DNA of 64,000 bases from Paracoccus tegillarcae (GTDB lineage: Bacteria > Pseudomonadota > Alphaproteobacteria > Rhodobacterales > Rhodobacteraceae): contig NZ_CP025408.1 in the NCBI RefSeq assembly GCF_002847305.1, positions 124,001 to 188,000 of the forward strand. The letters are read 5' to 3'. The notes below the pieces were generated by a model. It was not told where the DNA came from, ran no database searches, and was given only the letters and a program-made list of their open reading frames with translations. A program made the translations under genes and the position numbers. Shown in pieces: positions 6,923-22,925 of the stretch (position 1 is the stretch's first letter; every line of letters begins with the position of its first letter).

Positions 6923-7987
6923 ATGCAAGCGACTGAACCCTCTGATCTGGCCATGGTGCCCTTTGTCAGCGTCGACAACATGATGCGGCTGGTCAATCGG
7001 ATCGGGCTGCCGGAGATGCTGGTGGGCCTGGCGGGCTATATCGAGGATGACTTTCGCCGCTGGCAGTTGTTTGACAAGACGCCCCGCGTCGCTGCCCATT
7101 CCAAGGATGGCGTGATCGAGCTGATGCCGACCTCGGATGGCGAAAGCTATGGTTTCAAATATGTGAATGGCCACCCCAAGAACACGCGCGAAGGGCGACA
7201 GACCGTCACCGCCTTCGGGCTGCTGGCGGATGTGTCCAATGGCTATCCGCTGCTCTTGACCGAAATGACCCTGCTGACGGCGCTGCGGACGGCGGCGACC
7301 TCGGCGCTGGTGGCGAAATATCTGGCGCCCGAGGGGGCAGATACCATGGCCATGATCGGCAATGGCGCGCAGTCCGAGTTCCAGGCGCTGGCGATGCAGG
7401 CGATCTGCGGTGTGACCCGGCTGCGGCTTTACGATATCGATCCAAAGGCCACCGAAAAGGCCATGCGCAACCTGTCCGATCAGGGGTTCGACCTGACCGC
7501 CTGCACCAGCGCCGAACAGGCGATCGAGGGTGCGCAGATCATCACCACCTGCACTGCGGACAAGCAATATGCCACGATCCTGACCGACAACATGGTCGGC
7601 GCAGGCGTTCATATCAACGCCATCGGCGGCGACTGTCCGGGCAAGACCGAACTGCACCCCGATATCCTGCGCCGGGCGGATGTTTTCGTGGAATATCCAC
7701 CCCAGACCCGCATCGAGGGCGAGATCCAGCAGATGCCCGAGGATTTCCCGGTCACCGAGTTCTGGCAGGTCGTCACAGGCGTCGCCAAGGGCCGCCGCGA
7801 GCCCCGCCAGATCACCCTGTTTGACGGCGTCGGCTTTGCGACCGAGGATTTCTCGGCGCTGCGCTATATCCGCGATCAACTGCAGGGCACCGGGCTCTTT
7901 CAGCCGCTGGACATGCTGGCCGATCCCGATGATCCGCGCGATCTCTTTGGGATGCTGCGCCGCTCGCAGGTTGATGCCGTCGCCTAG
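6923..7987 (+). CDS. Ornithine cyclodeaminase family protein
   Basis: The product of about 354 residues matches the ornithine cyclodeaminase/mu-crystallin family, NAD-dependent enzymes that convert L-ornithine to L-proline plus ammonia or reduce cyclic imino acids. Visible features are the substrate-side segments IELMPTSDGE and FKYVNGHPKNT, the Rossmann motif MIGNGAQSEFQ and the segment INAIGGDCPGKTEL. Start choice is uncertain: ATG at 6923 or in-frame ATG at 6911, neither with a strong Shine-Dalgarno. It follows the DapA-like gene on the same strand after about 140 bp and may share its pathway (proline/hydroxyproline metabolism, inferred). Its TAG stop overlaps the stop of convergent cobF within one CTAG. 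Confidence 0.85.
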   Translation: MQATEPSDLAMVPFVSVDNMMRLVNRIGLPEMLVGLAGYIEDDFRRWQLFDKTPRVAAHSKDGVIELMPTSDGESYGFKYVNGHPKNTREGRQTVTAFGLLADVSNGYPLLLTEMTLLTALRTAATSALVAKYLAPEGADTMAMIGNGAQSEFQALAMQAICGVTRLRLYDIDPKATEKAMRNLSDQGFDLTACTSAEQAIEGAQIITTCTADKQYATILTDNMVGAGVHINAIGGDCPGKTELHPDILRRADVFVEYPPQTRIEGEIQQMPEDFPVTEFWQVVTGVAKGRREPRQITLFDGVGFATEDFSALRYIRDQLQGTGLFQPLDMLADPDDPRDLFGMLRRSQVDAVA

Positions 7988-8742
7988 ACGGTCTGATCCG
8001 CGCGACGCAGCAGATAGATATCCATGATCCAGCCATGGGCTGCGCGTGCCGCTGCCCGCGCGTCCACGATGCGCGGACCTGCCAGTGATAGCGGGCCGTG
8101 GTCCAGCAGTTCCTGCGCCATCCCGACATAGCCGCCCCACCAGATCTGCAGCCCATCAGGCGGCAGATGGCGGAACGAACAGTCGCCGTCCAGCATCACC
8201 ACGACCGTATCCGCGCCCTCGGGCCAGCCATGGTCGCGCAACCGGCGACCCGTGGTGATCTGGATCGGCGCGCCGACGCGGTTCAACGGAATGGCATGGG
8301 CCGCGCAGAGCGCCTGAATGGCGGTGATGCCCGGAATGACCCGCCGTATGACCGGCAATTCAAGCCGGTCGGCAATGCGCAGGGTGCTGTCGTAAAGCGA
8401 CGGGTCGCCCCAGACCAACAGCGCCACACGCCCCGAAAGACCCGGCAGGTGTTCGCGGATCGCGGCCTGCCAGCTTGCAGCGATGGCATCATGCCATAGG
8501 TTGACGCCGCGCCGGTAATCGGGATCGGCGGCGTCGCGCTGCGGCATCTGGAATTCGACGATCCGCCGGCCATCATCCAGATGCCGCGCGCAGATATCGC
8601 GGCGCAGCCCGGCCAGATCGTCCTTGTCCGCGCCCTTCAGCGGGATCAGGGCCAGATCGGCCGCGCGCATCGCCGCGATGGCCTGCAAGGTCAGGTGATC
8701 GGGATGGCCGGTGCCGATCCCGATCAGGTCAAGTTCGATCAT
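7984..8742 (-). CDS. cobF: Precorrin-6A synthase (deacetylating) CobF
   Basis: CobF is an S-adenosylmethionine-dependent methyltransferase of the aerobic cobalamin pathway that methylates C1 of precorrin-5 with loss of the C20-derived acetate to give precorrin-6A. The tetrapyrrole-methylase fold is visible as the N-terminal LIGIGTGHPDHLTLQA, the central LLVWGDPSLYDSTLR and VIPGITAIQALCA. At 252 residues the length is normal. It is the last gene of the cobL-cobE-cobM-cobB-cbiM-like-cobF run, 6 bp after the CbiM-like gene. Presence of cobF rather than cbiD supports the oxygen-dependent route. Confidence 0.93.
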   Translation of the reverse strand: MIELDLIGIGTGHPDHLTLQAIAAMRAADLALIPLKGADKDDLAGLRRDICARHLDDGRRIVEFQMPQRDAADPDYRRGVNLWHDAIAASWQAAIREHLPGLSGRVALLVWGDPSLYDSTLRIADRLELPVIRRVIPGITAIQALCAAHAIPLNRVGAPIQITTGRRLRDHGWPEGADTVVVMLDGDCSFRHLPPDGLQIWWGGYVGMAQELLDHGPLSLAGPRIVDARAAARAAHGWIMDIYLLRRADQTV

Positions 8743-8748
8743 CCCCGA

Positions 8749-9414
8749 TCAGACGAACAGCCGTGGCGTGACCACACCGCTGCCGCGCAGGCCGCGCAGC
8801 GATTTGGCCGCGGCCAGAACCGCCAGATCAATCAGCGGCTCGATCAGCACGACCATCATATAGGCCAACCCGAAGGTCACGACGCCCTGTGCGCCGGCCA
8901 GTCCCTGACCGTAGATCGCCCAGAACGCCACCCAGGCCACGACGCCACCCTGAAACGCGGTCGACAGCGCCAGCGCCTGACCATAGCGCAGATCGACATA
9001 GGCCGTGCCCGGCGCAATGATCCGACGCGCCAGTGCCGCGACGGCGAACAGCGGCACCAACAGCGTGGTGACGTTCATCCCGTATTGCGGCAGATCGAAG
9101 GGCGCAAAGAACAGCCCCTGCATCAGCAGGCCAAGCGCCAGACCAATCGCCGCCGGTGCCGCGCCGAAAATCAGGAACAGGGTCGAGCCAAGGATGAAAT
9201 GCACCTCGGAAACGCCGACCGGGAAATGTGGCAGGATCTGGAAGAAGGCAAAGACCAGCGCCGTGGTCAGCAGGCTGCGGATCAGCAACGAGGCGCCGCC
9301 GCTTTCGCGCAGGCTGTCCCATGACAGCTTCAGCGTCCACAGGCCCGCGCCTGCCGCTGTGACATAGCTTAGCGCGAGCTTTGCGCCGGTGACGATTTCG
9401 GGTTCGATATGCAT
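8749..9414 (-). CDS. CbiM-like cobalt transport membrane protein
   Basis: This 221-residue, very hydrophobic protein has six or seven predicted membrane spans. It begins Met-His-Ile, like CbiM, whose N-terminal His2 takes part in metal binding. A second conserved-looking segment, FPVGVSEVHFILGS, resembles the CbiM loop that closes over the metal. CbiM is the substrate-binding S-component of ECF-type cobalt transporters. The start has a good ribosome-binding site (GGAG, 5-6 nt away). No CbiN, CbiQ or CbiO gene is adjacent, so it either works alone or with components encoded elsewhere. Its place between cobB and cobF ties it to cobalt supply for corrin synthesis. Confidence 0.75.
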   Translation of the reverse strand: MHIEPEIVTGAKLALSYVTAAGAGLWTLKLSWDSLRESGGASLLIRSLLTTALVFAFFQILPHFPVGVSEVHFILGSTLFLIFGAAPAAIGLALGLLMQGLFFAPFDLPQYGMNVTTLLVPLFAVAALARRIIAPGTAYVDLRYGQALALSTAFQGGVVAWVAFWAIYGQGLAGAQGVVTFGLAYMMVVLIEPLIDLAVLAAAKSLRGLRGSGVVTPRLFV

Positions 9415-9499
9415 CTTGCTCTCCGTGTTTGCCGCGATATCTGGCGGCGGTTGATGATTGACCGGCTGGTCGGATGGTTGGGTAGCGGCGCGGCCATGG

Positions 9500-10831
9500 T
9501 CAGCCCGCCCCCGCCCGAGAAATCAGGTGAAAGAACGTCCCGGTGACGCAGCCGCCGCCGGGCATGGCGCGATGGGCACCGGTTTCCGGGACGGCATTGC
9601 CGCCGGCATCGGTGACCCGGGCCAGAGGCGCATCGGGCTGCGACAAGACGCTGGCATAGTGGAATTCATGGCCGCGCAAGGCTGTGCCGGGCGCAAGGCC
9701 CGGAAAGGGCGCGATCAGTTCTGCCCGGCGATAACCCAGATGCATCCGCCGTTTGTGATAGCTTGTCTCAAGCCCCAGCAAGCCGGCCATCTGGTGGCGC
9801 TGACCGTCCGCATCGACCAGCCCGGCGCCAAGCGCCATATAGCCACCGCATTCACCGTGCACGGGCCGGGTCTGGGCAAACCGGACCAGCCCGTCGCGAA
9901 ATTTTGCAGCCGCTGACAGCCGCCCGGCATGAAGCTCGGGATAACCGCCGGGCAGCCAGCAGGCATCGGCACTGTTATCGGGGGGCTGATCGTCCAGTGG
10001 CGAGAACGGCAGGACCGTCGCGCCCTGTCCGCGCCATTCCGCGATCAGATGCGGATAGACAAAGCTGAACGCCGCATCGCGGGCCAGGGCAATCCGCTGG
10101 CCCGGCGGCGGCAGGGGGCGATAGGGTGGCGTATCAGACAAGGGACGCGCGGCCGCGGCGGCGATGATGGCGTCAAGGTCGCAATGCGCGGCGATGAACT
10201 CGCCCGCCTGCGCCAACAGCCGGTCCAGCTCGGTCGTTTCCTCGGCCTGAACCAGCCCCAGATGACGCTCGGGCAGTTCGACATTTCCCTGCCGGGGCAA
10301 GGCACCCAGCACCGTCAGCCCGGCATCGGCCATCCCCTCGCGGATCAGCGCGTCATGGCGGGGCGAGGCGACGCGGTTCAGCACCACGCCGGCAAAGGGC
10401 AGATCGGGCCGCAGGGTGGCAAAACCGCGCGCCACCGCCGCCGCCGATTGTGCCTGACCCGACACATCGAGGATCAGCACCACCGGCCAGCCCATCATCC
10501 GCGCGATCTCGGCGCTGGACCCGATCCCCGTTTCACCGGGCCGCGCGACACCATCAAACAACCCCATCGAGCCTTCGGCCAGGACCAGATCGGCATCACC
10601 AGACAGACCTGCATGGGCCGCGATCTGGCCGGCCCCCATCGACCAGGTGTCAAGGTTCAGCGAGGCCCGCCCCGATGCCGCCTGATGAAAGGCGGGGTCA
10701 ATATAGTCGGGACCGGATTTGAAGGGTTGCACCGTCAGCCCCCGCGCCCGCAGCGCGACCAGCAGACCCAGCATCAGGATCGTCTTGCCGGTCCCCGAGG
10801 CCGGCGCGGAAATCATCAGTCCCGGCGTCAT
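9500..10831 (-). CDS. cobB: Hydrogenobyrinic (cobyrinic) acid a,c-diamide synthase
   Basis: CobB/CbiA amidates the a and c acetate side chains of the corrin macrocycle using glutamine and ATP. The N-terminal half is a dethiobiotin-synthetase-like P-loop domain with [10 protein letters not shown] at residues 8-17 and [11 protein letters not shown]. The C-terminal half is a class I glutamine amidotransferase with the nucleophilic cysteine in [12 protein letters not shown]. The protein is 443 residues, a normal length. Its ATG overlaps the cobM stop (ATGA). In an aerobic locus with cobN the substrate is expected to be hydrogenobyrinic acid. Confidence 0.95.
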
Positions 10832-11601
10832 GCGGGAAACCTCGGCGCGTCACCCACCGGGCGATAACGGCGGTCGTAATCGGCGGCGTAAAGGCGGCTG
10901 TCGTCGAAACCATCGGCGGCCAGCGCCGGGCCGACCAGGATCAGTGCGGTGCGGTCGATGCCCTGCGCCTCGGCCTCGATCCGCGACAGGGGCGCGCGGA
11001 TGATGCGCTGATCGGGCCAGCTTGCGCGCCAGACCACCGCCACCGGACAATCGGGCCCGTAATGGGGCAGCAAATCGGCCACCACCCGGTCCAGCGCCTG
11101 GATCGACAGATGGATGGCCAGCGTCGCGCCGGTGGCGGCGAATGCTGCCAGACGCTCGCCCTCGGGCATGGACGAGGCGCGGCCCGGCGTGCGGGTCAGC
11201 ACCACCGATTGCGCCACACCGGGCAGCGTCAGTTCGGTTTCCAGCGCGGCGGCGGCCGCGGCAAACGAGGGAACGCCCGGCACCACCTGCACCGCAATTT
11301 CCAACGCACGCAGGCGGCGCAGTTGCTCGCCCATGGCCGACCAGACCGACAGATCGCCCGAATGCAACCGCGCCACATCCTGCCCCGCCGCATCGGCAGC
11401 CGCGATTTCTGCGATGATCTGATCAAGGCTCAGGGGCGCGGTGTTCACGACCCGCGCGCCCGGTGGGCAATGCGACAACAAGGCCTGCGGCACCAGCGAA
11501 CCGGCGAAAAGACAGACCGGACAGGCCGCGATCAGGTCGCGCCCGCGCAGGGTGATCAGATCGGCGGCGCCCGGGCCTGCTCCGATGAAATGAACGGTCA
11601 T
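10828..11601 (-). CDS. cobM: Precorrin-4 C11-methyltransferase CobM
   Basis: CobM adds a methyl group from S-adenosylmethionine to C11 of precorrin-4. Its 257 residues show [16 protein letters not shown] at the N-terminus, [13 protein letters not shown], the [15 protein letters not shown] segment and [15 protein letters not shown], the recognised CobM/CbiF pattern. The ATG at 11601 overlaps the cobE stop (ATGA). A longer in-frame extension upstream has no homology to the family and lies within cobE, so I reject it. Confidence 0.95.
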
Positions 11602-11945
11602 TCGGGTTCTCTCTTTTCTGCAATGGCGGCGGTGGCGCGCCCGCAGGCGCTGATGACGCGCGGCACGGTGATCTGCGCGCCCGGCCCGCAAACGGACAGC
11701 GCGGCGGCCTCGGCGACCGATCCCGTGCCGTAAAGCGCCATTACGCGCGGCGAGGTGGTCGGCGTGCCAATGCCCTCGACACCTGCGAGCGACAGCGCGC
11801 GGCCAAGCGCCGTGACCTCTTCGGCGCGCGCCGCAATGGTGGCCAGCATGTCTGCCGCGCCGCCCTGCGCCTCGGCCTGCGCCAGCGCATCGCGCAATGC
11901 CGCGACCGGGGCGCCTGCCCGGCAACCGATCCCTGCCACCCTCAT
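11598..11945 (-). CDS. cobE: Cobalamin biosynthesis protein CobE (CbiG C-terminal-like)
   Basis: This 115-residue protein matches CobE, the stand-alone equivalent of the CbiG C-terminal domain. It shows the N-terminal [15 protein letters not shown], the central [26 protein letters not shown] and the C-terminal [12 protein letters not shown]. CobE is required for cobalamin production in aerobic producers, but its exact reaction is unsettled. I chose the ATG at 11945, which overlaps the cobL stop by 4 bp and places the conserved VAGIGC motif at the N-terminus. It is coupled to cobM through a second ATGA overlap. Confidence 0.88.
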
Positions 11946-13132
11946 CGCACCACCTGCCATTGCGTCACAGGACGGGCCGGTTGCCAGCCGCGCAGACCGC
12001 CCAGTGGCGTGGCCTCACAGAGTTCCATCCGCAGCAGCCGTCCGCCATGGCTGGCATGGCGCGCAGCCAGCAGGGCTTCGGTTTCCAGTGTCACGGCATT
12101 GGCAACCAGCCGCACACCCTCAGGCAGCAGCTGCCAGAGCCGGTCGAACAAAGGCCCGCTTGCGCCGCCGCCGACGAAGACGGCATCGGGTTCCGGCAGC
12201 CCCTCCAACGCCTCGGGCGCGGCGCCGGGGCGCAATGTCATCCGGTCTTGCAGGCCGAATGCCTCGATATTCAGGTGGATATTGCGTTGCCGATCCTCGC
12301 GCGGCTCTATGGTCACGGCGCGCCCACCGGCCAGCGCCCATTCGACCGAAACAGCGCCCGATCCGCCCCCGATATCCCACAGCATCTCGCCCGCGCGCGG
12401 TGCCAAGGCCGCCAGCGTCATGGCCCGGATCGGCGATTTGGTGATCTGTCCATCATGGGCGAAATCAGCCTCGGGTCGGCCCGGCACAGCGGGCAAGCCC
12501 CTACCGCGCGGCAGGTCGCATCCATCCAGCGCCACGGCAACGGGCGCATCGGCCTTGACCCCGGTCAGGGCATCAGCGCGGTGGTCCCGGATGCGTTCGG
12601 AGGGACCGCCCAGCCCTTCCAGCACAACCATGCGCATGTCACCCATCCCCTGCCCCGCCAACCAACGGGCCAGTGCCGCCGGGGCATCGCCGTCACGCAG
12701 GGTCGCCACGATCCGGCAGCCGCGCACCAGATGCGGACGCAGACGTGCAAAGGGCGCGGCATGCAGGCCAAGGCAGACCGTCGCCTCGATCCGCCAGCCC
12801 AGACGGGCAGCGGCCAGCGAGAAAATACCGGGGCCAGGCAAGGCGCGCCATTCTTCCGGCTCAAGATGGCCGGCCAGACTGCCGCCCGCGCCGAACCAGA
12901 ACGGATCGCCCGATGCCAGCACAGCCACGCGCTGTCCGCGCGCCGCCAGCGCCGGCTTGATATCAAAGGGCACAGGCCATTCCCGACCGCGCGCGCCGGC
13001 ACCTGCCAGCGCCAGATGTCGCGGCCCGCCAAAGACCAGATCGGCGCCGGCCACGGCTTCGCGGCTTGCATCCGACAGGCCGGACAGGCCATCTTCGCCA
13101 ATGCCGATGATGGTCAGCCAGGGATCCGCCAT
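11942..13132 (-). CDS. cobL: Precorrin-6Y C5,15-methyltransferase (decarboxylating) CobL
   Basis: CobL methylates C5 and C15 and removes the C12 acetate carboxyl, making precorrin-8X. The 396-residue protein is a fusion of a CbiE-like tetrapyrrole methylase ([30 protein letters not shown]) and a CbiT-like class I methyltransferase ([18 protein letters not shown]). I place the start at the ATG at 13132, which gives the canonical N-terminus [10 protein letters not shown]. This start codon overlaps that of divergent cobK in the tetranucleotide CATG, so any promoter for cobL must lie inside cobK or further upstream. It heads the cobL-cobE-cobM-cobB-cbiM-like-cobF run. Confidence 0.94.
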
Positions 13133-13883
13133 GTCACGCATCCTCCTTTTGGGCGGCACATCCGAGGCCAGCCGCACCGCACGGCTGTTGGCCGATGCCG
13201 GGCTGGATGCGGTGTTTTCCTATGCGGGGCGCACATCCGCGCCGGTGGATCAGCCGCTGCCGGTGCGGATCGGCGGTTTTGGCGGGGCTCAGGGGCTGAC
13301 GGCGTGGCTGCGCGATCAGCGGATCAGCCATGTGATCGACGCCACGCACCCCTTCGCCGCACAGATCAGCCGCAACGCCATTGCCGCAGCGGCAGCGGCG
13401 CGCCTGCCGATTCTGTCTCTGCAGCGGCCGCCCTGGCAGCCGGTCGCGGGCGATCAGTGGAGCAATGTCCCTGATATCGCGGCTGCAGCGGCTGCGCTGC
13501 CCGAACAGCCCGCAAGCGTTTTTCTGGCCATCGGCAAGCAGAACCTGACCGCATTCTGCAATCTTCCGCATCGCTGGCTGCTGCGGTTGGTCGATCCGCC
13601 GCAGGGCGCGCTGCCCTTGCCCCGCGCGACCGCCGTAATCGCGCGCGGACCCTTCACGCCCCAGTCCGATGAGGCCCTGATGCGCGCGCATGTCATAACC
13701 CATGTCGTCGCCAAGAATGCCGGCGGCGAGGGCGCGCGCGCCAAGCTGACCGCCGCGAACCGCCTTGGCCTGCCAGTGATCCTGATCGACCGGCCCGCCT
13801 TGCCGCCACGCAAGACCGTTACCACGCCAGAGCAGGTGCTGGACTGGCTGCATCACACGCCCTCCACGCTGCGGGGCGTATAG
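13131..13883 (+). CDS. cobK: Precorrin-6A reductase CobK
   Basis: CobK reduces precorrin-6A to precorrin-6B (dihydro form) with NADPH. The 250-residue protein shows the nucleotide-binding start ILLLGGTSEASRTARLLA, the segment HVIDATHPFAAQISRNA, FLAIGKQNL and the C-terminal VAKNAGGEGARAKLTAA. It is the only plus-strand gene in the cobalamin locus. Its start overlaps the cobL start and its last 31 bp overlap the 3' end of convergent cobJ. Its own promoter must therefore sit within cobL coding DNA. Confidence 0.94.
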   Translation: MSRILLLGGTSEASRTARLLADAGLDAVFSYAGRTSAPVDQPLPVRIGGFGGAQGLTAWLRDQRISHVIDATHPFAAQISRNAIAAAAAARLPILSLQRPPWQPVAGDQWSNVPDIAAAAAALPEQPASVFLAIGKQNLTAFCNLPHRWLLRLVDPPQGALPLPRATAVIARGPFTPQSDEALMRAHVITHVVAKNAGGEGARAKLTAANRLGLPVILIDRPALPPRKTVTTPEQVLDWLHHTPSTLRGV

Positions 13884-14590
13884 ACCCAGTTGCCGACGCG
13901 CCGCGTCGCTGCATTCCCCACCAGAACCACTGTTCGCATATCGGCCATCTCTGGCCGGGCCTCTGCCAGCGTGGTGATCCGCAGGGCCTCATCCAGGGTC
14001 GAAACCGCGCGGGCAAAGATGATCATCCGCTCGGGTCCGCATTCCTCGCGCAGGATATCCAGCACGCGGGAGAATTGATGCGGGCGGCTGGCGGATCGCG
14101 GATTATAGAAGCCCATCGCGAAATCGCCCCGTGCCGCGTGCCGCAACCGCTGCTCGATCAGGGCGAAAGGTTTGAGGTTGTCTGACAGGTTGATGGCGCA
14201 GAAATCATGGCCAAGCGGCGCACCTGCACGCGCCGCGGCGGCCAGCATCGCGGTAATGCCGGGCAGGATGCGAATATCCGTTTGCTGGTCCGTCCGGGCC
14301 TCAAGCGCCTCGAAAAGCGCCGAGGCCATGGCGAACACGCCCGGATCACCCGAGGACACGATGACCACGCGCAGCCCCTCGGCCGCCAGATCCAGCGCCA
14401 GATGCGCGCGATCCAGTTCCGCCCGGTTGTCCGAGCCATGCAATCGCAGCCCCGAACGCGGCGTGATGCGGGCAACGTAAGGGGCATAGCCGACCACATC
14501 CGTCGCCTCGGCAAGGGCCGCCCAGACCTCGGGCGTCACCAGATCGGTGGCGCCGGGGCCAAGCCCTGCAACTGTGACCCGACCGCTCAT
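13853..14590 (-). CDS. cobJ: Precorrin-3B C17-methyltransferase CobJ
   Basis: CobJ methylates C17 and drives ring contraction, converting precorrin-3B to precorrin-4. The 245-residue product shows VAGLGPGATDLVTPEV, GYAPYVARI, VVIVSSGDPGVFAMA, LPGITAMLAAAAR and GFYNPRSASRP, the hallmark CobJ segments. The ATG at 14590 overlaps the cobI stop (ATGA). Its 3' end overlaps convergent cobK by 31 bp, with no room for a terminator between them. Confidence 0.95.
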   Translation of the reverse strand: MSGRVTVAGLGPGATDLVTPEVWAALAEATDVVGYAPYVARITPRSGLRLHGSDNRAELDRAHLALDLAAEGLRVVIVSSGDPGVFAMASALFEALEARTDQQTDIRILPGITAMLAAAARAGAPLGHDFCAINLSDNLKPFALIEQRLRHAARGDFAMGFYNPRSASRPHQFSRVLDILREECGPERMIIFARAVSTLDEALRITTLAEARPEMADMRTVVLVGNAATRRVGNWVYTPRSVEGV

Positions 14591-15330
14591 TCCGCTGCGC
14601 CCATGATGGCCAGTGGCCGGCGGCCATGACCGTGGACCATGACGATGGCGAAATAGGGGCAATCCGCATCGCCCACCTCATCCAGCCGCACGACCCGCTG
14701 GCCCGGCATGGTGCCGCGCTCGATCAGCCAGGCCGCATCCAGCCGACCTGCTGCAGCCAATGCGCGGCGGATCTTGGGCAGGTTGCGCCCGGTCTTCATG
14801 ATGACCAGCGCATCGGCGGCGCGCATATGGCGGATCAGATCATCCAGCGGCAGCGTGCCCATCAGCACGGTCATCACATCATCGCCCCAGGTCACCGGCT
14901 GCCCGGTCGCGCCCCAGCAACCAGCCATGCCGGGAATGCCGGGGATCACCTCGATCCGCGCAACCTCGCGCAGGCGGATGTAGAGATGCATGAATGAGCC
15001 GTAAAAGAACGGGTCGCCCTCGCAGATCACCACCACATCATCCTGCTGGGCCAGCAACTCCAGCCGCGCGGCCCAGTCGTCATAGAATGCCGCCAGCAGC
15101 GCATTATAGGCCGGGCTGTCGAAAGGGATTTCCGTCGTGACCGGATATTCCATCGCATGTTCCTCAACGCCCGGCGCCAGCAGGTCCTGCACGATCCGAC
15201 GGGCCTGCCCCTGACGGCCGGCCTTGCGGAAAAACGCCAGATGGCGCGCGCCCCTGATCGCGCGGTCGGCACGGACCGAGATCAGATCGGGATCGCCGGG
15301 GCCAAGGCCCGCACAGATGATCTTGCCCAT
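14587..15330 (-). CDS. cobI: Precorrin-2 C20-methyltransferase CobI
   Basis: CobI methylates C20 of precorrin-2 to give precorrin-3A. The 247-residue protein shows CAGLGPGDPDLISVRA, VICEGDPFFYGSFMHLYIRL and VIPGIPGMAGCWGATG, all diagnostic for the CobI/CbiL family. I place the start at the ATG at 15330, which has a clear AAAGGA ribosome-binding site and matches the family N-terminus. It begins 2 bp after the cobH stop and overlaps cobJ by 4 bp. Confidence 0.95.
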   Translation of the reverse strand: MGKIICAGLGPGDPDLISVRADRAIRGARHLAFFRKAGRQGQARRIVQDLLAPGVEEHAMEYPVTTEIPFDSPAYNALLAAFYDDWAARLELLAQQDDVVVICEGDPFFYGSFMHLYIRLREVARIEVIPGIPGMAGCWGATGQPVTWGDDVMTVLMGTLPLDDLIRHMRAADALVIMKTGRNLPKIRRALAAAGRLDAAWLIERGTMPGQRVVRLDEVGDADCPYFAIVMVHGHGRRPLAIMGAAE

Positions 15331-15332
15331 GG

Positions 15333-15962
15333 TTATTCCTTTCGGCTGGCCAGCGCGTTGACGGCTGCGACCGTAATGGCCGAGCCGCCAAGCCGGCCCT
15401 TGACGATCAGCGCGGGCACCGGCGAGGCGGCCATCAACGCATCCTTGGATTCCGCCGCACCCACGAATCCCACCGGGCAGCCGATGATCGCGGCGGGGCG
15501 TGGGCAGGCGGGGTCCTCGAGCATATTGAGCAGATGGAACAGCGCGGTCGGCGCATTGCCGATGGCGACCACCGCGCCCGCCAGATGCGGTCGCCACAGG
15601 TCCAGTGCCGCGGCCGAGCGCGTATTGCCCATCCGGCGCGCCCGCTCCGGGACGGATGGCTCGTTCAGCGTGCAGATCACTGCATTGTCCCGTGGCAGGC
15701 GGGCGCGGGTGATGCCTTCGCTGACCATGCGCGCATCGCACAGGATCGGCGCACCGGCCTGCAAGGCGGCACGGGCAGCGGCGGCCATGCCGGGGGAAAA
15801 CCGGATGTCGCGTTCCAGCCCGACCAGACCGGCGGCATGGATCATCCGCACGGCCACGGGTTCCTCGTCGGCGTCAAAGCGCGCCAGATCGGCCTCGGCC
15901 CGGATGGTGTGAAAGGACTGCCGATAGATCGCGGCGCCGTCCTTTTCGTAGTCATATGGCAT
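15333..15962 (-). CDS. cobH: Precorrin-8X methylmutase CobH
   Basis: CobH moves a methyl group from C11 to C12 of precorrin-8X, forming hydrogenobyrinic acid. The 209-residue product carries the catalytic histidine in VRMIHAAGLVG near position 42, followed by ILCDARMVSEGI, GNAPTALFHLL and GCPVGFVGAAESK, all family signatures. Its ATG overlaps the cobG stop by one base (TGATG). Length and motifs are complete. Confidence 0.95.
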   Translation of the reverse strand: MPYDYEKDGAAIYRQSFHTIRAEADLARFDADEEPVAVRMIHAAGLVGLERDIRFSPGMAAAARAALQAGAPILCDARMVSEGITRARLPRDNAVICTLNEPSVPERARRMGNTRSAAALDLWRPHLAGAVVAIGNAPTALFHLLNMLEDPACPRPAAIIGCPVGFVGAAESKDALMAASPVPALIVKGRLGGSAITVAAVNALASRKE

Positions 15963-17068
15963 CAGATCACCTCTGGCAGTTGGTCGGGTCGCAAGGCGCG
16001 CCGGACCGGCTGATCGCCGGCGCGGCCATTGCGGATCATGTCAAATCCCTGCGCGGTGGCGGTCAGGGTCAGGTCGGCGGGCCGGGGCCAGCCGCAGCCC
16101 TTGGCGCAGCCCGAAACGTGCAGAATCGCGCCCTCGGGCAAAAGGGCCGCAAGATGGCGGGCCAGTGGACGGGTCTGGGCATGGGCCTGCGGGCAGCTTG
16201 GCGCACCCGCACAGGCACGCAGCCTGCGACGGGGATCGCGCGGATCAAGGATCAGCCCCGCCAGCGCGGGCATGGCCGCGGCGCCCTCGATCAAGATCAT
16301 GTGCCAGGGCGTCAACCGGACAGGCCCCGCCTGCGCAACGGCGATCAGGGTGTCCGGTTCGATCTGCCCGAATTCCAGCCCGACCAGCGCGCCTTGCACC
16401 ACCAAACCGGGTTCCGGCACGGCCTCGGTGCGAGACAAGGGGCGGTCCGCATCGGGCCAGCGTCCCGCTGCAATCAGGGCGGCCATCCGTCCGCGTCCCG
16501 CGACCATGCCGCCCTGCTGCAAGAACCACGCCGCCAGTTCGACCGTCTGCGCAACATCGTGCAGCGGCTGGCCCTGCGACATCCCATCGGCCAGCAGGAT
16601 CAATGCGCCGGTCGGATCACGTTCCAGCCGGATATCTGCGGGCACATCGCGCAGGATCGGGCGCGGTCCGGTATCGACGGCAAAGCCGAACTTGGCGGGC
16701 AGGCTCAGGTCGCTGGCGGCCAGACGCTCAGCAAGCGCCATTGCCAGCCGGTCGGTCGCGCCATCGGCAAAGGGGGTGACGATGATATTCCGCCGTGTCT
16801 CGGTCGCGATGTCGGGGTCGATCAGATCCAGCGCGGCCAACGTCTCGATCAGGTCTGCATGGGTGTCCGGTGTCACGCCGCGCAGTTGCAGATTGGCGCG
16901 GCCCGTCAGTTCGATCCGGCCATTGCCACAGCGCCGCGCGGCCTCGGCAATCGCGACCGCCTGCGCAGGCATCAGCCGTCCGCCCGGCGGCTTGATCCGC
17001 ACCACCCAGCCATCGCCGGATTCCATCGGGCGCAGCGCGCCGGGGCACCATCCCCTGACCGCGCTCAT
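15962..17068 (-). CDS. cobG: Precorrin-3B synthase CobG
   Basis: CobG is the oxygen-requiring Fe-S monooxygenase that hydroxylates precorrin-3A and forms the gamma-lactone precorrin-3B, the defining step of the aerobic pathway. The 368-residue protein resembles sulfite/nitrite reductases: IELTGRANLQLRGV near residue 52 and the cluster cysteines in ACAGAPSCPQA and SGCAKGC near the C-terminus. Its ATG overlaps the cobN stop (ATGA). Presence of CobG means that this organism does not need CobZ for this step. Confidence 0.93.
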   Translation of the reverse strand: MSAVRGWCPGALRPMESGDGWVVRIKPPGGRLMPAQAVAIAEAARRCGNGRIELTGRANLQLRGVTPDTHADLIETLAALDLIDPDIATETRRNIIVTPFADGATDRLAMALAERLAASDLSLPAKFGFAVDTGPRPILRDVPADIRLERDPTGALILLADGMSQGQPLHDVAQTVELAAWFLQQGGMVAGRGRMAALIAAGRWPDADRPLSRTEAVPEPGLVVQGALVGLEFGQIEPDTLIAVAQAGPVRLTPWHMILIEGAAAMPALAGLILDPRDPRRRLRACAGAPSCPQAHAQTRPLARHLAALLPEGAILHVSGCAKGCGWPRPADLTLTATAQGFDMIRNGRAGDQPVRRALRPDQLPEVI

Positions 17069-20000
17069 GCCCCGACCTCAAGACTGGCAGCGATCGAGTT
17101 GCGCCGTGTCACCCACAGGCCCGCCTCGGCCAGCCGGTTGTAGAGGTCGCGCATGGCGGCCAGCGCAGCCGGGTTGGCGTCCTGCATGAATTCGACGACC
17201 TCGGGCCTGCCAAGCGTGGCATCGTGATAAAGGTCGAACAGATGTGGCGGCACGGTCTGGGCCAGATGGGCAAAAGCCGACAGATGGTCCAGGGTTGCCG
17301 CGATCTCGGCAGCACCGCGAAAACCATGCGCCATCATGCCATTGGCCCAACGCGGATCGCTGGCACGGGCGCGCACCGTGCGGGCGATTTCCGCGGTCAG
17401 CGTGCGGGCGCGGGGGCGGTCGGGCTGGGTGGCGTCAAGGTGATAAAGCGCGGGCCGGGGTGCACCGATGCGCGCCATGGCCGCCGCAAATCCGGCCTCA
17501 TGCGCGGCGTAATCGGCAGCCAGCAGCAGATCGCTTTCGGGCAAATCCTGCGCATGGACGAAACTATCGGCACCGGCCAATCGCGCCTGCAATGCCCCGG
17601 GATCAGCCCGGACATTACCATCTTGTCCGATGGCCCAGCTGGACGCTGCCAGCCAGGCCTGACCGGCGGCCTGCCGCGCCGCGTCGCTGAAATCCTGCGC
17701 GGCCACGCCCATCCCCAGCCCGTATTGGCCGGGTTCCGGCCCAAAGACGCGCGGGCTGCGCGCCAGATAGGGGTTGTCGGACGGGTCCTCAACGCGTTCG
17801 GCAAGCGCCTGCGCGCCGGTTTCAAACAATTGCGCCAGCACCGGAAACACGTCGCGAAAAAGGCCCGAGACCCGCAAGGTCACGTCGATGCGCGGGCGAT
17901 CCAGCAGCGGCAGAGGCACGATCTCGACGCCCGAAACACGGCCCGAGCCGTGATCCCAAACCGGCTTGAGCCCCGCCAAGTGCAACGCCATCGCGAATTC
18001 CTCGCCTGCCGTGCGCATGGTGGCGCTACCCCACAGATCGACGACCAGCCCCTTGGGCCAGTCGCCATGATCCTGCAAATGACGGCGCAGCAATTCCTCG
18101 GCCAGTTTCACGCCCTGCGCATGGGCATTGGGCGTCGGCACGGCACGGGGATCGGTGCTGAAGAGGTTTCGCCCCGTGGGCATGACGTCGCTGCGGCCCC
18201 GCGCGGGCGAGCCCGAGGGTCCGGGCGCGACATGCTGTCCGTCCAGCGCCATCAGCAGACCGGCGCGTTCGGCAGCACCGCAGGCGCCATTGCCAAAGAC
18301 ATGCAGCCCCTCGCCGAACTGGCTTTCCTTGATATCGCAGACAAAGCGGTCGATGCGGGTGATGGCCTCGGCGGCACTGGCCTGCCGGGGGATGCCCAGA
18401 TCGGCCTCCAGCCCGGCGGCGCGCGCCTCGTCCCGGATCGCGCCGATCAGCCGGTCGCGGCGGGCCGGGTCCAGACCGTCGGCGGTGGAGTATTCGTCCA
18501 GCAGACGTTCCAGATGCGCCATGCCTTCGGGCACACGCCCCGCGACCATCGGCGGCGGCAAATGGCCAAGCGTGACCGCGCCCAACCGCCGCTTGGTCTG
18601 CGCGGCCTCGCCCGGATCGTTGACGATAAAGGGATAGACGACCGGCAATTTGCCCAGCAGCGCCTGCGGCCAGCACGCATCAGACAGCGCGACCGATTTG
18701 CCCGGCAGCCATTCCAGCGTGCCATGCGCCCCCATATGGATCATCGCGTGCAGGCCCTGCTGGCGCAGCCACAGGTAAAAGGCGACATAAGCGTGGCGCG
18801 GCACTCGGGTCAGATCGTGATAATCATCCGTCCGGCCTGCACGGTGACTGCGTTCAGGCTGCAGCGCCAACAGCAGCTTGCCGCGCCGGATCGCCGCAAA
18901 GCGGAACGCGCCACCCTGCAAATCCGGGTCGCTTTCCGCCGGCCCCCATGCGGTATGCAGATCGTCCCGCAATGCCTGCGGCAGGCATTGCAAGGCTGCC
19001 AGATATTCGCCCATCGGCCAGTCGATGGTCTGCTGCGCCAGTGCCTCGGCGCAGTCACCGGGGGCGACGTCATAGCCGGCACTGGCCATCATATCTGTGA
19101 CCGCATCGGCGGATGCGGGCGCGTCCAGCCCCACGGCATGAGCCATCTGCCAGTCGCGACCGGGATAGGTCGACAGAATCAGCGCGATGGCGCATTCATC
19201 GCGCGGGGTTCGGGCCAGCCGATGCCAGGCAGCGACTTGCGCGACGGTGGCTTTGATACGCGCCGGATCGGCACGGTGGGCAAAGCGGCTGAATTGCAGG
19301 TCAGGATCGCGCGGCTCGGGTGCTTTGAAACTGACGACACCCCCAAAGATGCGCCCGTCGATCTCGGGCAGGACCACATGCATGGCCAGATCAGCCGGCG
19401 ACAGCCCCCGTTCGGACCCCGCCCATTCGCCGCGCCTGTTGGTCGACAGCGCCACCTGAAAGACCGGGCAGCCATAGGCATCGAACGGCGTGGCACCGGT
19501 TTCGGCACGCATGGAAAATCCGGTGCAATTGACGATGGCCGCCGGCGCCACCGGCAGCGCGGTTGCCAGCCAATCGGCGAAACCCGGTGCCTTCAGCGAG
19601 GGGGCAAAGACACCGCAGGCGGCAAAGCCCGCCTCGCGCAGCGACCTGATCAGCGCATCGACCGGCCCTGTATCAGCCGCCGCCAGATAGCTGCGATAAA
19701 AGCTGACCAACGCCAGCGGGTGATCAGAGGCCGCGTCCGGCGCCGCGTCGATCACGCCCTGATCGGGATCGTAGAATCCCCAATCGGGCACCGCCTTCTT
19801 GCCCACAACGGGCCCGGCATAGATGCCCGCCGCCAGCGCCAACTGCGCCAGTGCCGCCTGCGCCGCAACCGCGCCGCCGGCATCACACAGCCGCCGCAAT
19901 TGCCGCAGCACCGATGCCGGCACAGTCGAAAGCGCATCCAGCGTCGCATCATCGCGCCCATCGGCTGGCAGCACGGCAAGCGCGATCCCCTTGCGCCGCG

Positions 20001-20310
20001 CCAGATCCTGAACCGAGGCCAAACCGTAGGGCCAATAGGCCTGCCCGCCGATCAGGCGGATAAGGATGCCCTTGGCGCCCGCCAGCGTGTTCTCGACATA
20101 GGTATCAACCGAAACCGGATGCCGCAGTGCCACCAGATTGCAAAGCCGCAGCGAGGGCAATCCGTCTGCCCCACGACGCCAACCCGCCGCGAAAGCGCCC
20201 AGATCGCTGTCGGAAAACGACAGCACGACCAGATCGCCCGGCGTCTGGCCGGGGTCATAGGGTGTGTCGGTCTCGTCCAGACCGTGGCTTTCGCGAAAGA
20301 CGACATGCAT
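17065..20310 (-). CDS. cobN: Cobaltochelatase subunit CobN
   Basis: CobN is the large, substrate-binding subunit of the ATP-dependent CobNST chelatase that inserts cobalt into hydrogenobyrinic acid a,c-diamide. The 1081-residue protein is at the short end of the family, with no obvious internal deletion. It shows HMGAHGTLEWLPGKSVALS, YPFIVNDPGEAAQTKRR and the C-terminal region VFGPEPGQYGLGM followed by AHGFRGAAEIA, as in CobN/BchH-type chelatases. Its ATG overlaps the cobW stop by one base (TGATG). CobS and CobT are not in the window. Confidence 0.95.
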   Translation of the reverse strand: MHVVFRESHGLDETDTPYDPGQTPGDLVVLSFSDSDLGAFAAGWRRGADGLPSLRLCNLVALRHPVSVDTYVENTLAGAKGILIRLIGGQAYWPYGLASVQDLARRKGIALAVLPADGRDDATLDALSTVPASVLRQLRRLCDAGGAVAAQAALAQLALAAGIYAGPVVGKKAVPDWGFYDPDQGVIDAAPDAASDHPLALVSFYRSYLAAADTGPVDALIRSLREAGFAACGVFAPSLKAPGFADWLATALPVAPAAIVNCTGFSMRAETGATPFDAYGCPVFQVALSTNRRGEWAGSERGLSPADLAMHVVLPEIDGRIFGGVVSFKAPEPRDPDLQFSRFAHRADPARIKATVAQVAAWHRLARTPRDECAIALILSTYPGRDWQMAHAVGLDAPASADAVTDMMASAGYDVAPGDCAEALAQQTIDWPMGEYLAALQCLPQALRDDLHTAWGPAESDPDLQGGAFRFAAIRRGKLLLALQPERSHRAGRTDDYHDLTRVPRHAYVAFYLWLRQQGLHAMIHMGAHGTLEWLPGKSVALSDACWPQALLGKLPVVYPFIVNDPGEAAQTKRRLGAVTLGHLPPPMVAGRVPEGMAHLERLLDEYSTADGLDPARRDRLIGAIRDEARAAGLEADLGIPRQASAAEAITRIDRFVCDIKESQFGEGLHVFGNGACGAAERAGLLMALDGQHVAPGPSGSPARGRSDVMPTGRNLFSTDPRAVPTPNAHAQGVKLAEELLRRHLQDHGDWPKGLVVDLWGSATMRTAGEEFAMALHLAGLKPVWDHGSGRVSGVEIVPLPLLDRPRIDVTLRVSGLFRDVFPVLAQLFETGAQALAERVEDPSDNPYLARSPRVFGPEPGQYGLGMGVAAQDFSDAARQAAGQAWLAASSWAIGQDGNVRADPGALQARLAGADSFVHAQDLPESDLLLAADYAAHEAGFAAAMARIGAPRPALYHLDATQPDRPRARTLTAEIARTVRARASDPRWANGMMAHGFRGAAEIAATLDHLSAFAHLAQTVPPHLFDLYHDATLGRPEVVEFMQDANPAALAAMRDLYNRLAEAGLWVTRRNSIAASLEVGA

Positions 20311-21359
20311 CAGGCGGGCACAGCCCCCAGCAATGCACCACGAATGGCGGTTTCGTTCACGTCGTCATGTTCCGCGATCACCACCAGTCGCGATGCGCGC
20401 GGCTGGCTGCCCCAGGCGCGGTCATATTGGTGCCGCACGCGCGCGCCCACCGCCTGCACCAGCAACCGCATGGGCTTGCCCGACACCGCGACATAACCCT
20501 TGACCCGCAGGATGTTCTGTTCGCGCGCCAGCCGTTCGATGGACGCAACCAGATCAGCCGGGTCGCCGATCTCGGGCAGGTCGATGACCACCGTCTCGAA
20601 ATCCTCATGCTCGTGGTCGTCGGCGCCGTCGTGATGGCTGGGACGCGCGGCCAGATCATCCTCTGCGGCAGCGCCCACACCCAGGATAACCAGCGGATCG
20701 ATGATGCCTTCGGTCACGGCAAGGATAGGCAGCGGACGCGGCGCCTCGGCCTCGATCACCGCGCGGGCCGCGTCCAGCCCCGCCCTGTCGACCAGATCGG
20801 CCTTGGTCAGCAGCACCACATCGGCGCAGGCGATCTGATCCTCGAACACCTCGGACAGGGGCGTTTCGTGATCGAGGCTGTCATCGGCCTCGCGCTGCGC
20901 CTGCACGGCGGCCTCATCCGGCGCAAAGCGACCCGCCGCCACGGCCTCGGCATCGGCCAGCGCAATCACGCCATCAACAGTAATGCGCGACCGGATCGCG
21001 GGCCAGTCAAACGCCTTGAGCAAAGGTTTCGGCAGCGCCAGTCCCGAGGTTTCTATCAAGATATGGTCGGGCTTTTGCGGCATCGCCATCAACTTTTCCA
21101 GCGTCGGGATAAAGTCATCGGCGACGGTGCAGCAAATGCAGCCGTTCGACAGTTCCAGAATATTCTCGGCCGGGCAGCTTTCATCGGCGCAGCCCTTGAG
21201 GATCTGGCCATCGACACCGACGGTGCCGAATTCATTCACCAGAATGGCCAGCCGCCTTCCCTGGGGATTGGCCATCAGATGCCGGATCAGTGTCGTCTTG
21301 CCCGAGCCCAGAAAGCCGGTGATGACGGTGACGGGGGTTTTGGTCAGATCGTTGGTCAT
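20310..21359 (-). CDS. cobW: CobW-family GTPase metallochaperone
   Basis: CobW proteins are G3E-family GTPases that bind Zn or Co and are thought to deliver cobalt to the CobNST chelatase. The 349-residue protein has Walker A GFLGSGKTT (residues 15-23), the metal-binding CxCC motif (Cys74, Cys76, Cys77), the TKAD guanine motif and a histidine/acidic loop (His242, 243, 249, 251). I chose the ATG at 21359 because the AGGAG Shine-Dalgarno, which runs into the stop codon of the upstream gene, is then 6 nt away. A GTG at 21365 would have no spacing. It sits directly before cobN. Confidence 0.93.
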   Translation of the reverse strand: MTNDLTKTPVTVITGFLGSGKTTLIRHLMANPQGRRLAILVNEFGTVGVDGQILKGCADESCPAENILELSNGCICCTVADDFIPTLEKLMAMPQKPDHILIETSGLALPKPLLKAFDWPAIRSRITVDGVIALADAEAVAAGRFAPDEAAVQAQREADDSLDHETPLSEVFEDQIACADVVLLTKADLVDRAGLDAARAVIEAEAPRPLPILAVTEGIIDPLVILGVGAAAEDDLAARPSHHDGADDHEHEDFETVVIDLPEIGDPADLVASIERLAREQNILRVKGYVAVSGKPMRLLVQAVGARVRHQYDRAWGSQPRASRLVVIAEHDDVNETAIRGALLGAVPA

Positions 21360-21361
21360 GT

Positions 21362-21712
21362 TCACTCCTGCGGGGGAATACGGGCAAGGCTTTGCTTGCG
21401 GAAAATCACTGGCCGCTCGCGCCAGGGCACCAGCCCGTCAGCGGTGGCGGCATAGGCGGCGGCACCGGTCAGAATATCGGTGGCATTTTCGGGGGTCAGA
21501 CGGCCATAGACATAAGTCCACTTGCCCGGCGCAGACAGCGCGACCGAACAGCCCTGCGAACAGGCCGACAGGCATTCGACCGGGCGCAGTTCCACGCCGT
21601 CGGGCAGCGCGGCGCCGGCCAGCGCGTCATGCAGCAGCGCGCCGGGGCGTGGATCATCGCCCGCAGCCGCCTCGGCGCGGCAGGTGGTACAAACATGCAA
21701 AATGGCGCGCAT
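21362..21712 (-). CDS. DUF1636 family cysteine-rich putative metal-binding protein
   Basis: This 116-residue protein of unknown function belongs to the DUF1636 family often found beside cobW. Five cysteines (positions 8, 11, 47, 51 and 55) in a C-x2-C ... C-x3-C-x3-C pattern resemble thioredoxin-like [2Fe-2S] ferredoxins, and the segment VECLSACSQGCSVAL is a typical cluster-binding loop. The ATG at 21712 has a GAAGGGG ribosome-binding site 6 nt upstream. It is the first gene behind the B12 riboswitch and ends 2 bp before the cobW start. A role in cobalt handling or electron delivery is inference. Confidence 0.8.
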   Translation of the reverse strand: MRAILHVCTTCRAEAAAGDDPRPGALLHDALAGAALPDGVELRPVECLSACSQGCSVALSAPGKWTYVYGRLTPENATDILTGAAAYAATADGLVPWRERPVIFRKQSLARIPPQE

Positions 21713-21829
21713 TGCGGCCCCTTCGTCGCTGGTGGCGTCGGGGGTGGGGCCAGTAGGACAGGATGGGGCACGCGACCAAGCATCCTGCCTGCCGGTCGCG
21801 AAACACCCCGTTCGCCCGTTAACACTCAG

Positions 21830-22005
21830 CGCTGGCAGGTCTCCCGGCTTGCGGATCAAACGGTCGTCCCGCCTTCCCAACCCGTCCTGTAGGGGTCAGT
21901 GGCCTGGGCGACCTCTCCGGTCACGGTCGCGGGGGCGGCTGCGTTCAGGCCATTGGCCCTTTGCATTCCCTCTTCGCCTGCCACGGATGGCAGGAACCAG
22001 CGCAG
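21830..22005 (-). promoter_or_regulatory. Cobalamin (B12) riboswitch
   Basis: Read on the minus strand, the region has the conserved cobalamin aptamer blocks in the right order: GGTTCC near 21999-21994, GGGAATGC near 21970, the core GCCGCCCCCGCGACCGTG near 21939-21922, GCCACTGACCCC around 21900-21890, GGGAAGGCGG near 21880-21870 and the B12 box AGCCGGGAGACCTGCC at 21849-21834. It lies about 120 nt upstream of the DUF1636 start, which leaves space for an expression platform that may include a hairpin near the GAAGGGG ribosome-binding site. It should repress DUF1636-cobW-cobN-cobGHIJ when adenosylcobalamin is plentiful. The rest of the gap 21713-22118 must hold this operon's promoter and that of divergent larE. 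Confidence 0.92.
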
Positions 22006-22118
22006 CGCCACATGATCCGGTCACCCCCCGGTTGTCAAGCGCTAGCCGCCACCTTGATCCTGCCCGGCTTTGCGACCATCGTGGGGGCTGTGTTTTCGCC
22101 CTGCCCGAGGCCCGGCCC

Positions 22119-22925
22119 GTGACATCCGACACCGCCACATCCGTTCCGATCGCCCTGCGCGATGCCCTTCGGCGCCACCCGCGGCTGGTGCTGGCGGTCA
22201 GCGGCGGGGTCGACAGCATGACGCTGGCGCATGCGGCGCACCATGTGTTGGGGGTGGATCGGGTGGCCGTCTGTCATGCCGTTTCGCCCGCCGTGCCCGA
22301 TCTGGCGACCCGGCGCGTGCAGGACCACGCTGCCCGCAATGGCTGGCGCCTGCACCTGCTGGAAGCCGGTGAATTCGCCGATCCGAACTATCTGAAAAAC
22401 CCCGTCAACCGCTGTTATTTCTGCAAGTCGAACCTTTATGACCGCATCGCGGCATCAGTGGCTGGCAGCATCGCATCCGGCGCAAACTTGGATGATCTCA
22501 ACGACTTCCGCCCAGGACTTAAGGCCGCAGATGAACGTCGCATCTGCCATCCTTTCGTGGAGGCGGGGCTGCGCAAGGCTGATATCCGCGCGCTGGCCCG
22601 CGCCTTTGGCCTGGATGATATCAGCGAATTGCCCGCCCAGCCCTGCCTTGCCAGCCGGATCGAGACCGGCCTGACCGTCACCCCCGAAGATCTGGCCTTT
22701 GTCCAGCAGGTCGAGACCGCGCTGGACGCGCTGGCCCCGCGCGCGACACTGCGCTGCCGGGTCGTTGCAGGCGGCATTCGGCTGGAGCTGTCGCCCGACC
22801 TGATCGCCGATACGGGCCTGCACCAGCGGATGTCGGCAACGGCACGCGACCTATGCGACACCGCAGGGCGCGCGCTGCTGTCGGTGACGCCCTACCAACG
22901 CGGATCGGCCTTTCTGCATGGCTGA
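22119..22925 (+). CDS. larE: ATP-dependent sacrificial sulfur transferase LarE
   Basis: LarE installs sulfur into the pincer precursor P2CMN during synthesis of the nickel-pincer nucleotide (NPN) cofactor of lactate racemase-type enzymes. The 268-residue protein has the PP-loop SGGVDS (residues 28-33), RCYFCKSNLYDRI and the C-terminal PAQPCLASRIETG. Cys176 matches the sacrificial cysteine of the classical enzyme. Cys99 and Cys102 add a CxxC pair, the three-cysteine pattern seen in LarE types that bind a [4Fe-4S] cluster. The start is a GTG with a GAGG about 9 nt upstream. larB follows with overlapping frames. Confidence 0.88.
   Translation: MTSDTATSVPIALRDALRRHPRLVLAVSGGVDSMTLAHAAHHVLGVDRVAVCHAVSPAVPDLATRRVQDHAARNGWRLHLLEAGEFADPNYLKNPVNRCYFCKSNLYDRIAASVAGSIASGANLDDLNDFRPGLKAADERRICHPFVEAGLRKADIRALARAFGLDDISELPAQPCLASRIETGLTVTPEDLAFVQQVETALDALAPRATLRCRVVAGGIRLELSPDLIADTGLHQRMSATARDLCDTAGRALLSVTPYQRGSAFLHG

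Follow-up and report, generated by a model that had tools for sequence, protein, structure and literature searches.

The noncontiguous operon of menE, menC, MW1733, ytkD and MW1731 was reportedly described by Saenz-Lahoya in 2019. In passages of PMC7154746, menE-menC-MW1733-ytkD-MW1731 of Staphylococcus aureus is presented as a noncontiguous operon whose internal region is not translated and pairs over its whole extent with the antisense mRNA. A second related class are the antisense overlapping genes of bacteria, and parts of the review PMC7457138 treat the functionality of their proteins as a question. Here we describe the cobalamin (B12) locus in a window of 64,000 nt from Paracoccus tegillarcae (contig NZ_CP025408.1, positions 124,001 to 188,000), in which cobK, the sole plus-strand gene within a minus-strand cob run, lies opposite a long minus-strand open reading frame (ORF), termed here the bridge ORF. 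Comparison with relatives makes it very probable that the locus forms one transcriptional and translational unit running through the inverted cobK, with the bridge translated.

As in the noncontiguous operon of PMC7154746, so far as its passages describe it, a run of genes on one strand, which would be read as one transcript, encloses a gene of the other strand, and this arrangement was found in the window as well as in its relatives. Unlike the S. aureus case in those passages, the cob locus has an antisense ORF that is under selection and coupled at both ends, and its inverted gene acts in the pathway of the genes around it. The sequence-only reading had drawn the analogy with Staphylococcus; the gene layout bears it out, whereas an untranslated internal region does not seem to carry over, given comparative signs of translation. 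That reading had overlooked the minus-strand ORF at 13856-13134 opposite cobK. The central features, in window coordinates, are as follows.

13131..13883, plus strand: cobK, precorrin-6A reductase (NF005968 1.7e-94, above its cut-off)
13134..13856, minus strand: bridge ORF, on the strand opposite cobK and in register with its codons (240 codons; stop TGA 13136-13134)
13853..14590, minus strand: cobJ (TIGR01466 1.8e-86, longer ORF scanned; start taken from translation; stop TGA 13855-13853)
11942..13132, minus strand: cobL, a CbiE+CbiT fusion (TIGR02467 2e-34, TIGR02469 6.3e-25; alternative in-frame ATG 13141)
13130..13133, no strand: palindrome CATG, common to the cobK ATG (13131-13133) and the cobL ATG (13132-13130, minus strand)
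13142..13150, minus strand: strong Shine-Dalgarno-like AAAAGGAGG for cobL, inside cobK codons 4-7

The two overlaps that had been read from the letters are both present: cobJ (ending at 13853) and cobK (ending at 13883) overlap tail to tail by 31 bp (13853-13883), and cobK and cobL overlap start to start, both ATGs lying in the palindrome CATG (13130-13133). Candidate starts of the bridge ORF are GTG 13856, which forms GTGA with the cobJ stop, and ATG 13853, which forms TGATG and is preceded by GGAGG at a distance of 7 nt. At the other end, a single nucleotide separates the bridge TGA from the cobL ATG at 13132. If ATG 13141 is taken as the cobL start, the bridge stop begins 5 nt after the start begins, the arrangement seen most often in relatives. 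Among the in-frame ATGs of cobL, 13141 gives this commonest ATGNNTGA geometry and 13132 a better Shine-Dalgarno spacing. A mis-annotated known gene at 13134-13856 was considered and rejected, as the bridge ORF had no match in NCBIfam or Pfam.

For comparison, two surveys looked for cobK: one of 110 genomes from the window's family, with about one genome for each genus, gave a match in 83, and one of 310 genomes from the class gave a match in 119. Loci with cobK antisense between cobJ and cobL were termed type A (65 resolved loci from the two surveys, our first set), and loci with another arrangement, or in which the type-A order was not demonstrable, type B (113 resolved loci, of which 110 were of usable length and three were dropped). 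Nineteen loci were left out because the cobK start or motif was unresolved; at least two of them (L037 and L051) had the order cobJ-cobK-cobL. As a check of type B, seven loci were queried and six resolved, each with a same-strand ORF of about 1.1 kb abutting the cobK start, and cobK does not look sandwiched in these six. For a second set, genome contigs were scanned with type-A cobK as the seed and the best 80 named loci were taken, of which 75 were resolved (L207, L213, L236, L251 and L265 were left out as unresolved). These 75 came from Rhodobacterales, Hyphomicrobiales, Acetobacterales, Sphingomonadales, Rhodospirillales, Burkholderiales and Oceanospirillales, with four unplaced; having been picked for likeness, the set is uninformative on the frequency of the gene order. 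Identical cobK genes were removed between sets, though the same species could still occur in both. The combined type-A sample thus holds 140 loci, mostly from Alphaproteobacteria with some from Beta- and Gammaproteobacteria. Comparing the placement of cobK in related genomes had been proposed as a check, and all 80 likeness-selected second-set loci, like the 65 survey loci, shared the order. A FastTree phylogeny of 250 cobK proteins gave 5 changes between types A and B. All p values below disregard kinship; synonymous sites nonetheless differ widely (4-fold identity about 0.5), and the per-genus test reported below holds.

Stops in the aligned antisense frame can come only from the cobK codons TTA, CTA and TCA, and their expected number was derived from neighbouring cob genes of the same locus, using one ORF per gene. 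Type-A cobK contained 44 antisense-stop codons versus 182.5 expected (140 loci; 121 lower, 10 higher; p 2e-25), and 11 versus 153.4 when the loci L003, L056, L128 and L147 were set aside. Type-B controls had 282 versus 268.2 expected (87 of the 110 loci, with enough neighbour codons; 23 dropped). Per Leu and Ser codon, the rate of stop codons was 0.009 in type-A cobK, compared to 0.027 to 0.048 in the other tabulated cob genes of the same loci; against cobI alone, the lowest neighbour, the ratio for type-A cobK was 0.41 (82 loci). CTA, TTA and TCA were the most depleted of all codons tested in type A, but not in type B. Taken alone, the second set gave 8 antisense stops versus 105.2 expected, and one locus per genus of this set 4 versus 75.3 (53 loci), both on a looser baseline in which ORF extensions and duplicate matches inflated cobJ. 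Selection against antisense-frame stops, as for a functional antisense overlapping gene, is evident in this comparison. Type-A cobK further avoids CGA, CCT and TCG (CCT is somewhat low in controls too); the antisense partners TCG, AGG and CGA may be poor codons, a hint that selection might also act on the speed of bridge translation.

Antisense frames of GC-rich genes are often open, and openness could be an artefact of high GC, with ends that agree by chance. Indeed, aligned antisense frames were more often stop-free at high GC content of third codon positions (GC3), and 44.2 of the 140 type-A frames would be expected by chance to be stop-free beyond codon 2. However, 125 were, and 11 others had a single stop, located at the ends of the frame in ten of these eleven loci. 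Type-A cobK also had fewer antisense-stop codons than control cobK in each of the six GC3 bins into which the first set was divided, neither of the other antisense frames of cobK was specifically depleted (one was above expectation and the other below it, but in types A and B alike), and the ends of the frame use codons seldom used in these genomes. We regard a GC artefact as extremely improbable.

The ends of the frame displayed equally distinct patterns. By a lenient count, which took the nearest start codon at each end, 134 of the 140 type-A loci had a single ORF whose two ends lay no more than 15 nt from the cobJ stop and from a cobL start codon, respectively, and in 119 loci the ORF start overlapped the cobJ stop in -1 geometry. 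ATGA, like GTGA, is an overlap motif of translational coupling. The cobJ stop was TGA in 126 loci, and the last cobJ codon ended in A, giving ATGA, in 99 of them versus 20.5 expected from synonymous usage; ordinary cob junctions were alike, with ATGA after cobI in 112 of 139 and after cobL in 103 of 140 loci. At the 3′ end, of the 105 loci whose cobL may begin in the shared CATG, 91 had the ORF stop within cobL codons 1-3, versus 9.2 expected, mostly via TCT or GCT at codon 2 (75 of 105). Because TGA, TAA and TAG all occur, the stop and not an amino acid appears to be kept. Where the cobL start lies farther along, the ORF passes cobK and stops beside a candidate cobL start; this is suggestive only, as the start nearest the ORF stop was taken there, and a TGA after A, G or T is then near-automatically in -1 overlap, which was not counted as proof. 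In comparative terms, stop-start overlap is conserved beyond codon usage at both ends. It resembles the translational coupling treated in parts of PMC12548453 and occurs as at other cob junctions, but differs from usual coupling in that the partner is the antisense frame of another gene, seemingly only a relay.

A further signal lies within cobK itself. In the 105 loci, the stretch upstream of cobL, located in cobK codons, paired with the 16S tail at an average of -8.20 kcal/mol, versus -5.19 kcal/mol for synonymous resampling (p 8e-13). The same stretch in type B paired more weakly than expected (-3.61 versus -4.32 kcal/mol, 88 loci), and no Shine-Dalgarno excess was seen at this place in the 22 first-set loci with cobL starting elsewhere. 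The reverse Shine-Dalgarno, for cobK within cobL, was only modestly better than expected (-5.18 versus -4.58).

Named plasmid-borne loci gave a similar picture. In 11 of 11 such loci, including those of Rhizobium etli p42e, R. johnstonii, Azospirillum lipoferum, Acidiphilium multivorum and the betaproteobacterium Methylibium, the aligned frame was open from an NTGA formed at the cobJ stop across practically the whole of cobK. A cobJ-cobK gap of 170-180 nt is likewise spanned by the frame in Azospirillum and Methylobacterium bullatum. The ORF ended within 15 nt of the cobL start in 8 of the 11 by script and in two more (R. johnstonii and Methylibium) by the annotated start, while in Methylobacterium bullatum the end was not placed relative to the cobL start. 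The gene order itself is that of rhizobia and other Alphaproteobacteria, seven annotated plasmid regions, those of R. etli p42e and R. johnstonii among them, having cobK opposite to its neighbours and before cobL. An ORF opposite cobK was listed in none of the seven gene tables of these plasmids, which are incomplete on their source's own account; the other four of the eleven records had no table there. Comparison of the loci thus shows a frame selected for openness, with both its ends selected to abut cobJ and cobL.

An open frame with gene-like junctions could also encode a functional protein of about 245 residues, made together with CobJ and CobL. A change at the third position of a cobK codon is a change at the first position of the antisense codon. 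In conservation, the 4-fold sites of cobK did not exceed those of neighbouring genes (mean difference -0.022 over 201 pairs; for type B, -0.075 from only 11 pairs). At cobK-identical codons, antisense residues had an identity of 0.543 versus 0.489 with permuted synonymous codons, a slightly larger excess than in type-B controls (0.504 versus 0.469); this would leave little or no extra amino-acid constraint on the bridge ORF, as the excess is small and near that of controls. AlphaFold2 prediction from 24 aligned frames returned a mean predicted local distance difference test (pLDDT) of 36 and a predicted template modelling score (pTM) of 0.10, and 23 homologous frames shared only 24-45% identity with the window's bridge ORF, which is also the frame without a database match. 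A protein function was rejected for want of notable constraint and of a predicted fold, and we hold it to be very unlikely. Selection on the encoded amino acids, expected of a functional antisense overlapping gene, is not apparent; most likely, the bridge product is a by-product, with stops removed, ends held and amino acids left to drift. Like the bacterial antisense overlapping genes in the parts of PMC7457138 concerned, the bridge is a long ORF wholly embedded antisense to an annotated gene. It differs from them in that selection acts on openness and ends and hardly on amino acids, and in its evident role in cis, the continuity of the operon.

The remaining genes of the locus form two arms on the minus strand, in the order DUF1636, CobW, CobN, CobG, CobH, CobI and CobJ, followed beyond cobK by CobL, CobE-like, CobM, CobB, CbiM and CobF. 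NCBIfam and Pfam bear out the gene calls and coordinates that had been given for both arms.

21817..22016, minus strand: cobalamin riboswitch RF00174, heading the first arm (116.5 bits, E 1.6e-28; gathering cut-off 31.5)
21362..21880, minus strand: DUF1636 ORF (PF07845, E 3.7e-36)
20310..21365, minus strand: cobW (TIGR02475 3.8e-162)
17065..20310, minus strand: cobN (NF008973, 1636 bits)
15962..17068, minus strand: cobG (TIGR02435 8.8e-73)
15333..15962, minus strand: cobH (NF006136 1e-103)
14587..15330, minus strand: cobI (TIGR01467 1.1e-65, longer ORF scanned; start taken from translation)
11598..11960, minus strand: cobE-like, CbiG C-terminal domain (PF01890 1.9e-11)
10828..11601, minus strand: cobM (TIGR01465 4.8e-94, longer ORF scanned; start taken from translation)
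9500..10831, minus strand: cobB (NF002204 6.8e-146)
8749..9414, minus strand: cbiM-like (PF01891 1.9e-15)
7984..8742, minus strand: cobF (TIGR02434 2.1e-96)

The true start of DUF1636 is probably downstream of the ORF start, the domain beginning only at residue 61. Divergent from the riboswitch-headed cob operon are larE (TIGR00268) and larB (NF033503), at 21522-23577 on the plus strand. For cobK, an alignment of 26 homologues had 40 invariant columns. To what extent the placement of cobK stands out was apparent from a survey of 800 kb of the same chromosome (about one fifth of the genome; 742 genes from a simple, uncurated gene caller): among 72 genes between opposite-strand neighbours, only cobK had both gaps below 30 nt, and only there did a bridging ORF have both ends within 15 nt.

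The single transcript through cobJ, cobK and cobL that the sequence-only reading had proposed is strongly supported by comparison, through the open frame and the tuned junctions, while co-transcription itself is what we infer from them. Since stop-start junctions are tuned at both ends of the frame, the cobJ message would continue through cobK into cobL. A consensus scan of the minus strand between 11900 and 14700 detected neither a sigma-70-type promoter, other promoter types being outside its reach, nor a terminator-like site. Alternatively, the locus could consist of two units, with cobJ ending in or near cobK, a promoter of cobL inside cobK, and an incidental antisense ORF. Such a split would accord with the persistence of the gene order without the ORF in L128 and L147, with the limitation of the promoter scan to sigma-70-type sites, and with the substantial antisense transcription that passages of PMC4842269 describe for Bradyrhizobium in general, where cob genes are not mentioned. 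It leaves unexplained, however, the ATGA at the cobJ stop (99 versus 20.5), the lack of stops over the full length and the stop at the cobL start (91 versus 9.2), and no clear block of raised synonymous conservation marked a promoter in cobK or in cobL. We therefore consider two units quite unlikely.

With one unit, the B12 riboswitch most likely governs the second arm (cobL to cobF) too, because message and ribosomes would run through cobK. RF00174 occurs once in the window and twice in the whole genome, the other riboswitch lying at G000:C1:3716977-3717168 on the plus strand (132 bits). A separate riboswitch for cobL was sought and rejected: there was none elsewhere in the window and none between cobJ and cobL in 30 loci scanned. 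Four of these 30 had a riboswitch towards the cobF end and one had a riboswitch upstream of first-arm genes, and many of the loci may not reach the operon head. The riboswitches towards the cobF end (L033, L040, L052 and L057) were among ten loci of one scan; in some relatives, the tail of the second arm may thus be under its own riboswitch control.

The proposed course of events is the following. Transcription from the riboswitch would run through cobJ, along the antisense strand of cobK, and into cobL and onward. Judging from the conserved anatomy, ribosomes ending cobJ would restart at once on the overlapping start of the bridge ORF, translate the bridge and end at the cobL start, where the Shine-Dalgarno inside cobK and the adjacent stop would reload them. 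Ribosome-profiling data exist for Sinorhizobium meliloti (GSE206492). According to parts of PMC12548453, Rho loads on long untranslated stretches. The benefit would then probably be that no untranslated gap of about 720 nt arises in which Rho would terminate, and that cobL is fed with ribosomes; the ribosome-coated RNA may also limit pairing with the cobK mRNA. Presumably, cobK is transcribed separately, from a start that by position would lie within cobL.

Such an arrangement might serve mainly the mutual antisense regulation of cobK and operon, in the manner of excludons or of the noncontiguous operon of Staphylococcus, a purpose compatible with the bridge. The two predicted transcripts overlap completely, and reciprocal control is described for such layouts in passages of PMC7154746. 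Reciprocal regulation through RNase III and polymerase collision counts among the traits of a noncontiguous operon. By reasoning, ribosomes on both messages would hinder their pairing. The cell requires CobK alongside its partner enzymes, at times when the remainder of the B12 pathway is on, which sits awkwardly with reciprocal regulation of cobK. Mutual regulation as the main purpose appears unlikely to us, if less so than a split into two units.

Several points weigh against a single unit with a translated bridge. Besides the leniency of the count of 134 in 140, from which the synonymous-expectation tests are free, the Rho-avoidance step is probable and drawn from general knowledge. Four type-A loci lack an intact bridge: (i) L128 and (ii) L147, with GC of 0.38 and 0.45, have 16 and 13 antisense stops, respectively, and cobJ in another phase; (iii) L003 has three antisense stops with the gene order kept; and (iv) in L056, spacers flank cobK at either end and the bridge is broken. 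In addition, L024 and L098 each miss one end criterion. Since the gene order persists in these four although the bridge is not intact, the bridge would not be strictly required; across the loci compared, it is common and not obligatory. L128 and L147 belong to AT-richer genomes, in which the order is kept though the bridge frame is full of stops. Genome G061 has two cobK copies (L056 and L077), and the type-A copy is the one with spacers and a broken bridge.

On balance, we think it probable that the bridge ORF represents a distinct kind of element, selected to be translated irrespective of its product so that transcription and ribosomes cross an inverted gene. No mention of a bridge ORF was found in the titles and abstract openings turned up by searches of openly licensed papers; most subscription papers lie outside these searches, and priority is not established. 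If the proposal is true, inverted genes in other operons should show the same avoidance of stops and tuning of ends, and bridge ORFs could be found by a scan. In bacteria whose untranslated RNA is ended by Rho, noncontiguous operons make one ask how a transcript can outlast an extended antisense region, and the cob locus offers a conserved answer, namely that the antisense strand is kept translated. Antisense ORFs would thereby gain a role without a functional protein, which bears on the debate over their selection. For the cob locus itself, control by the B12 riboswitch would extend to the second arm, from cobL to cobF.

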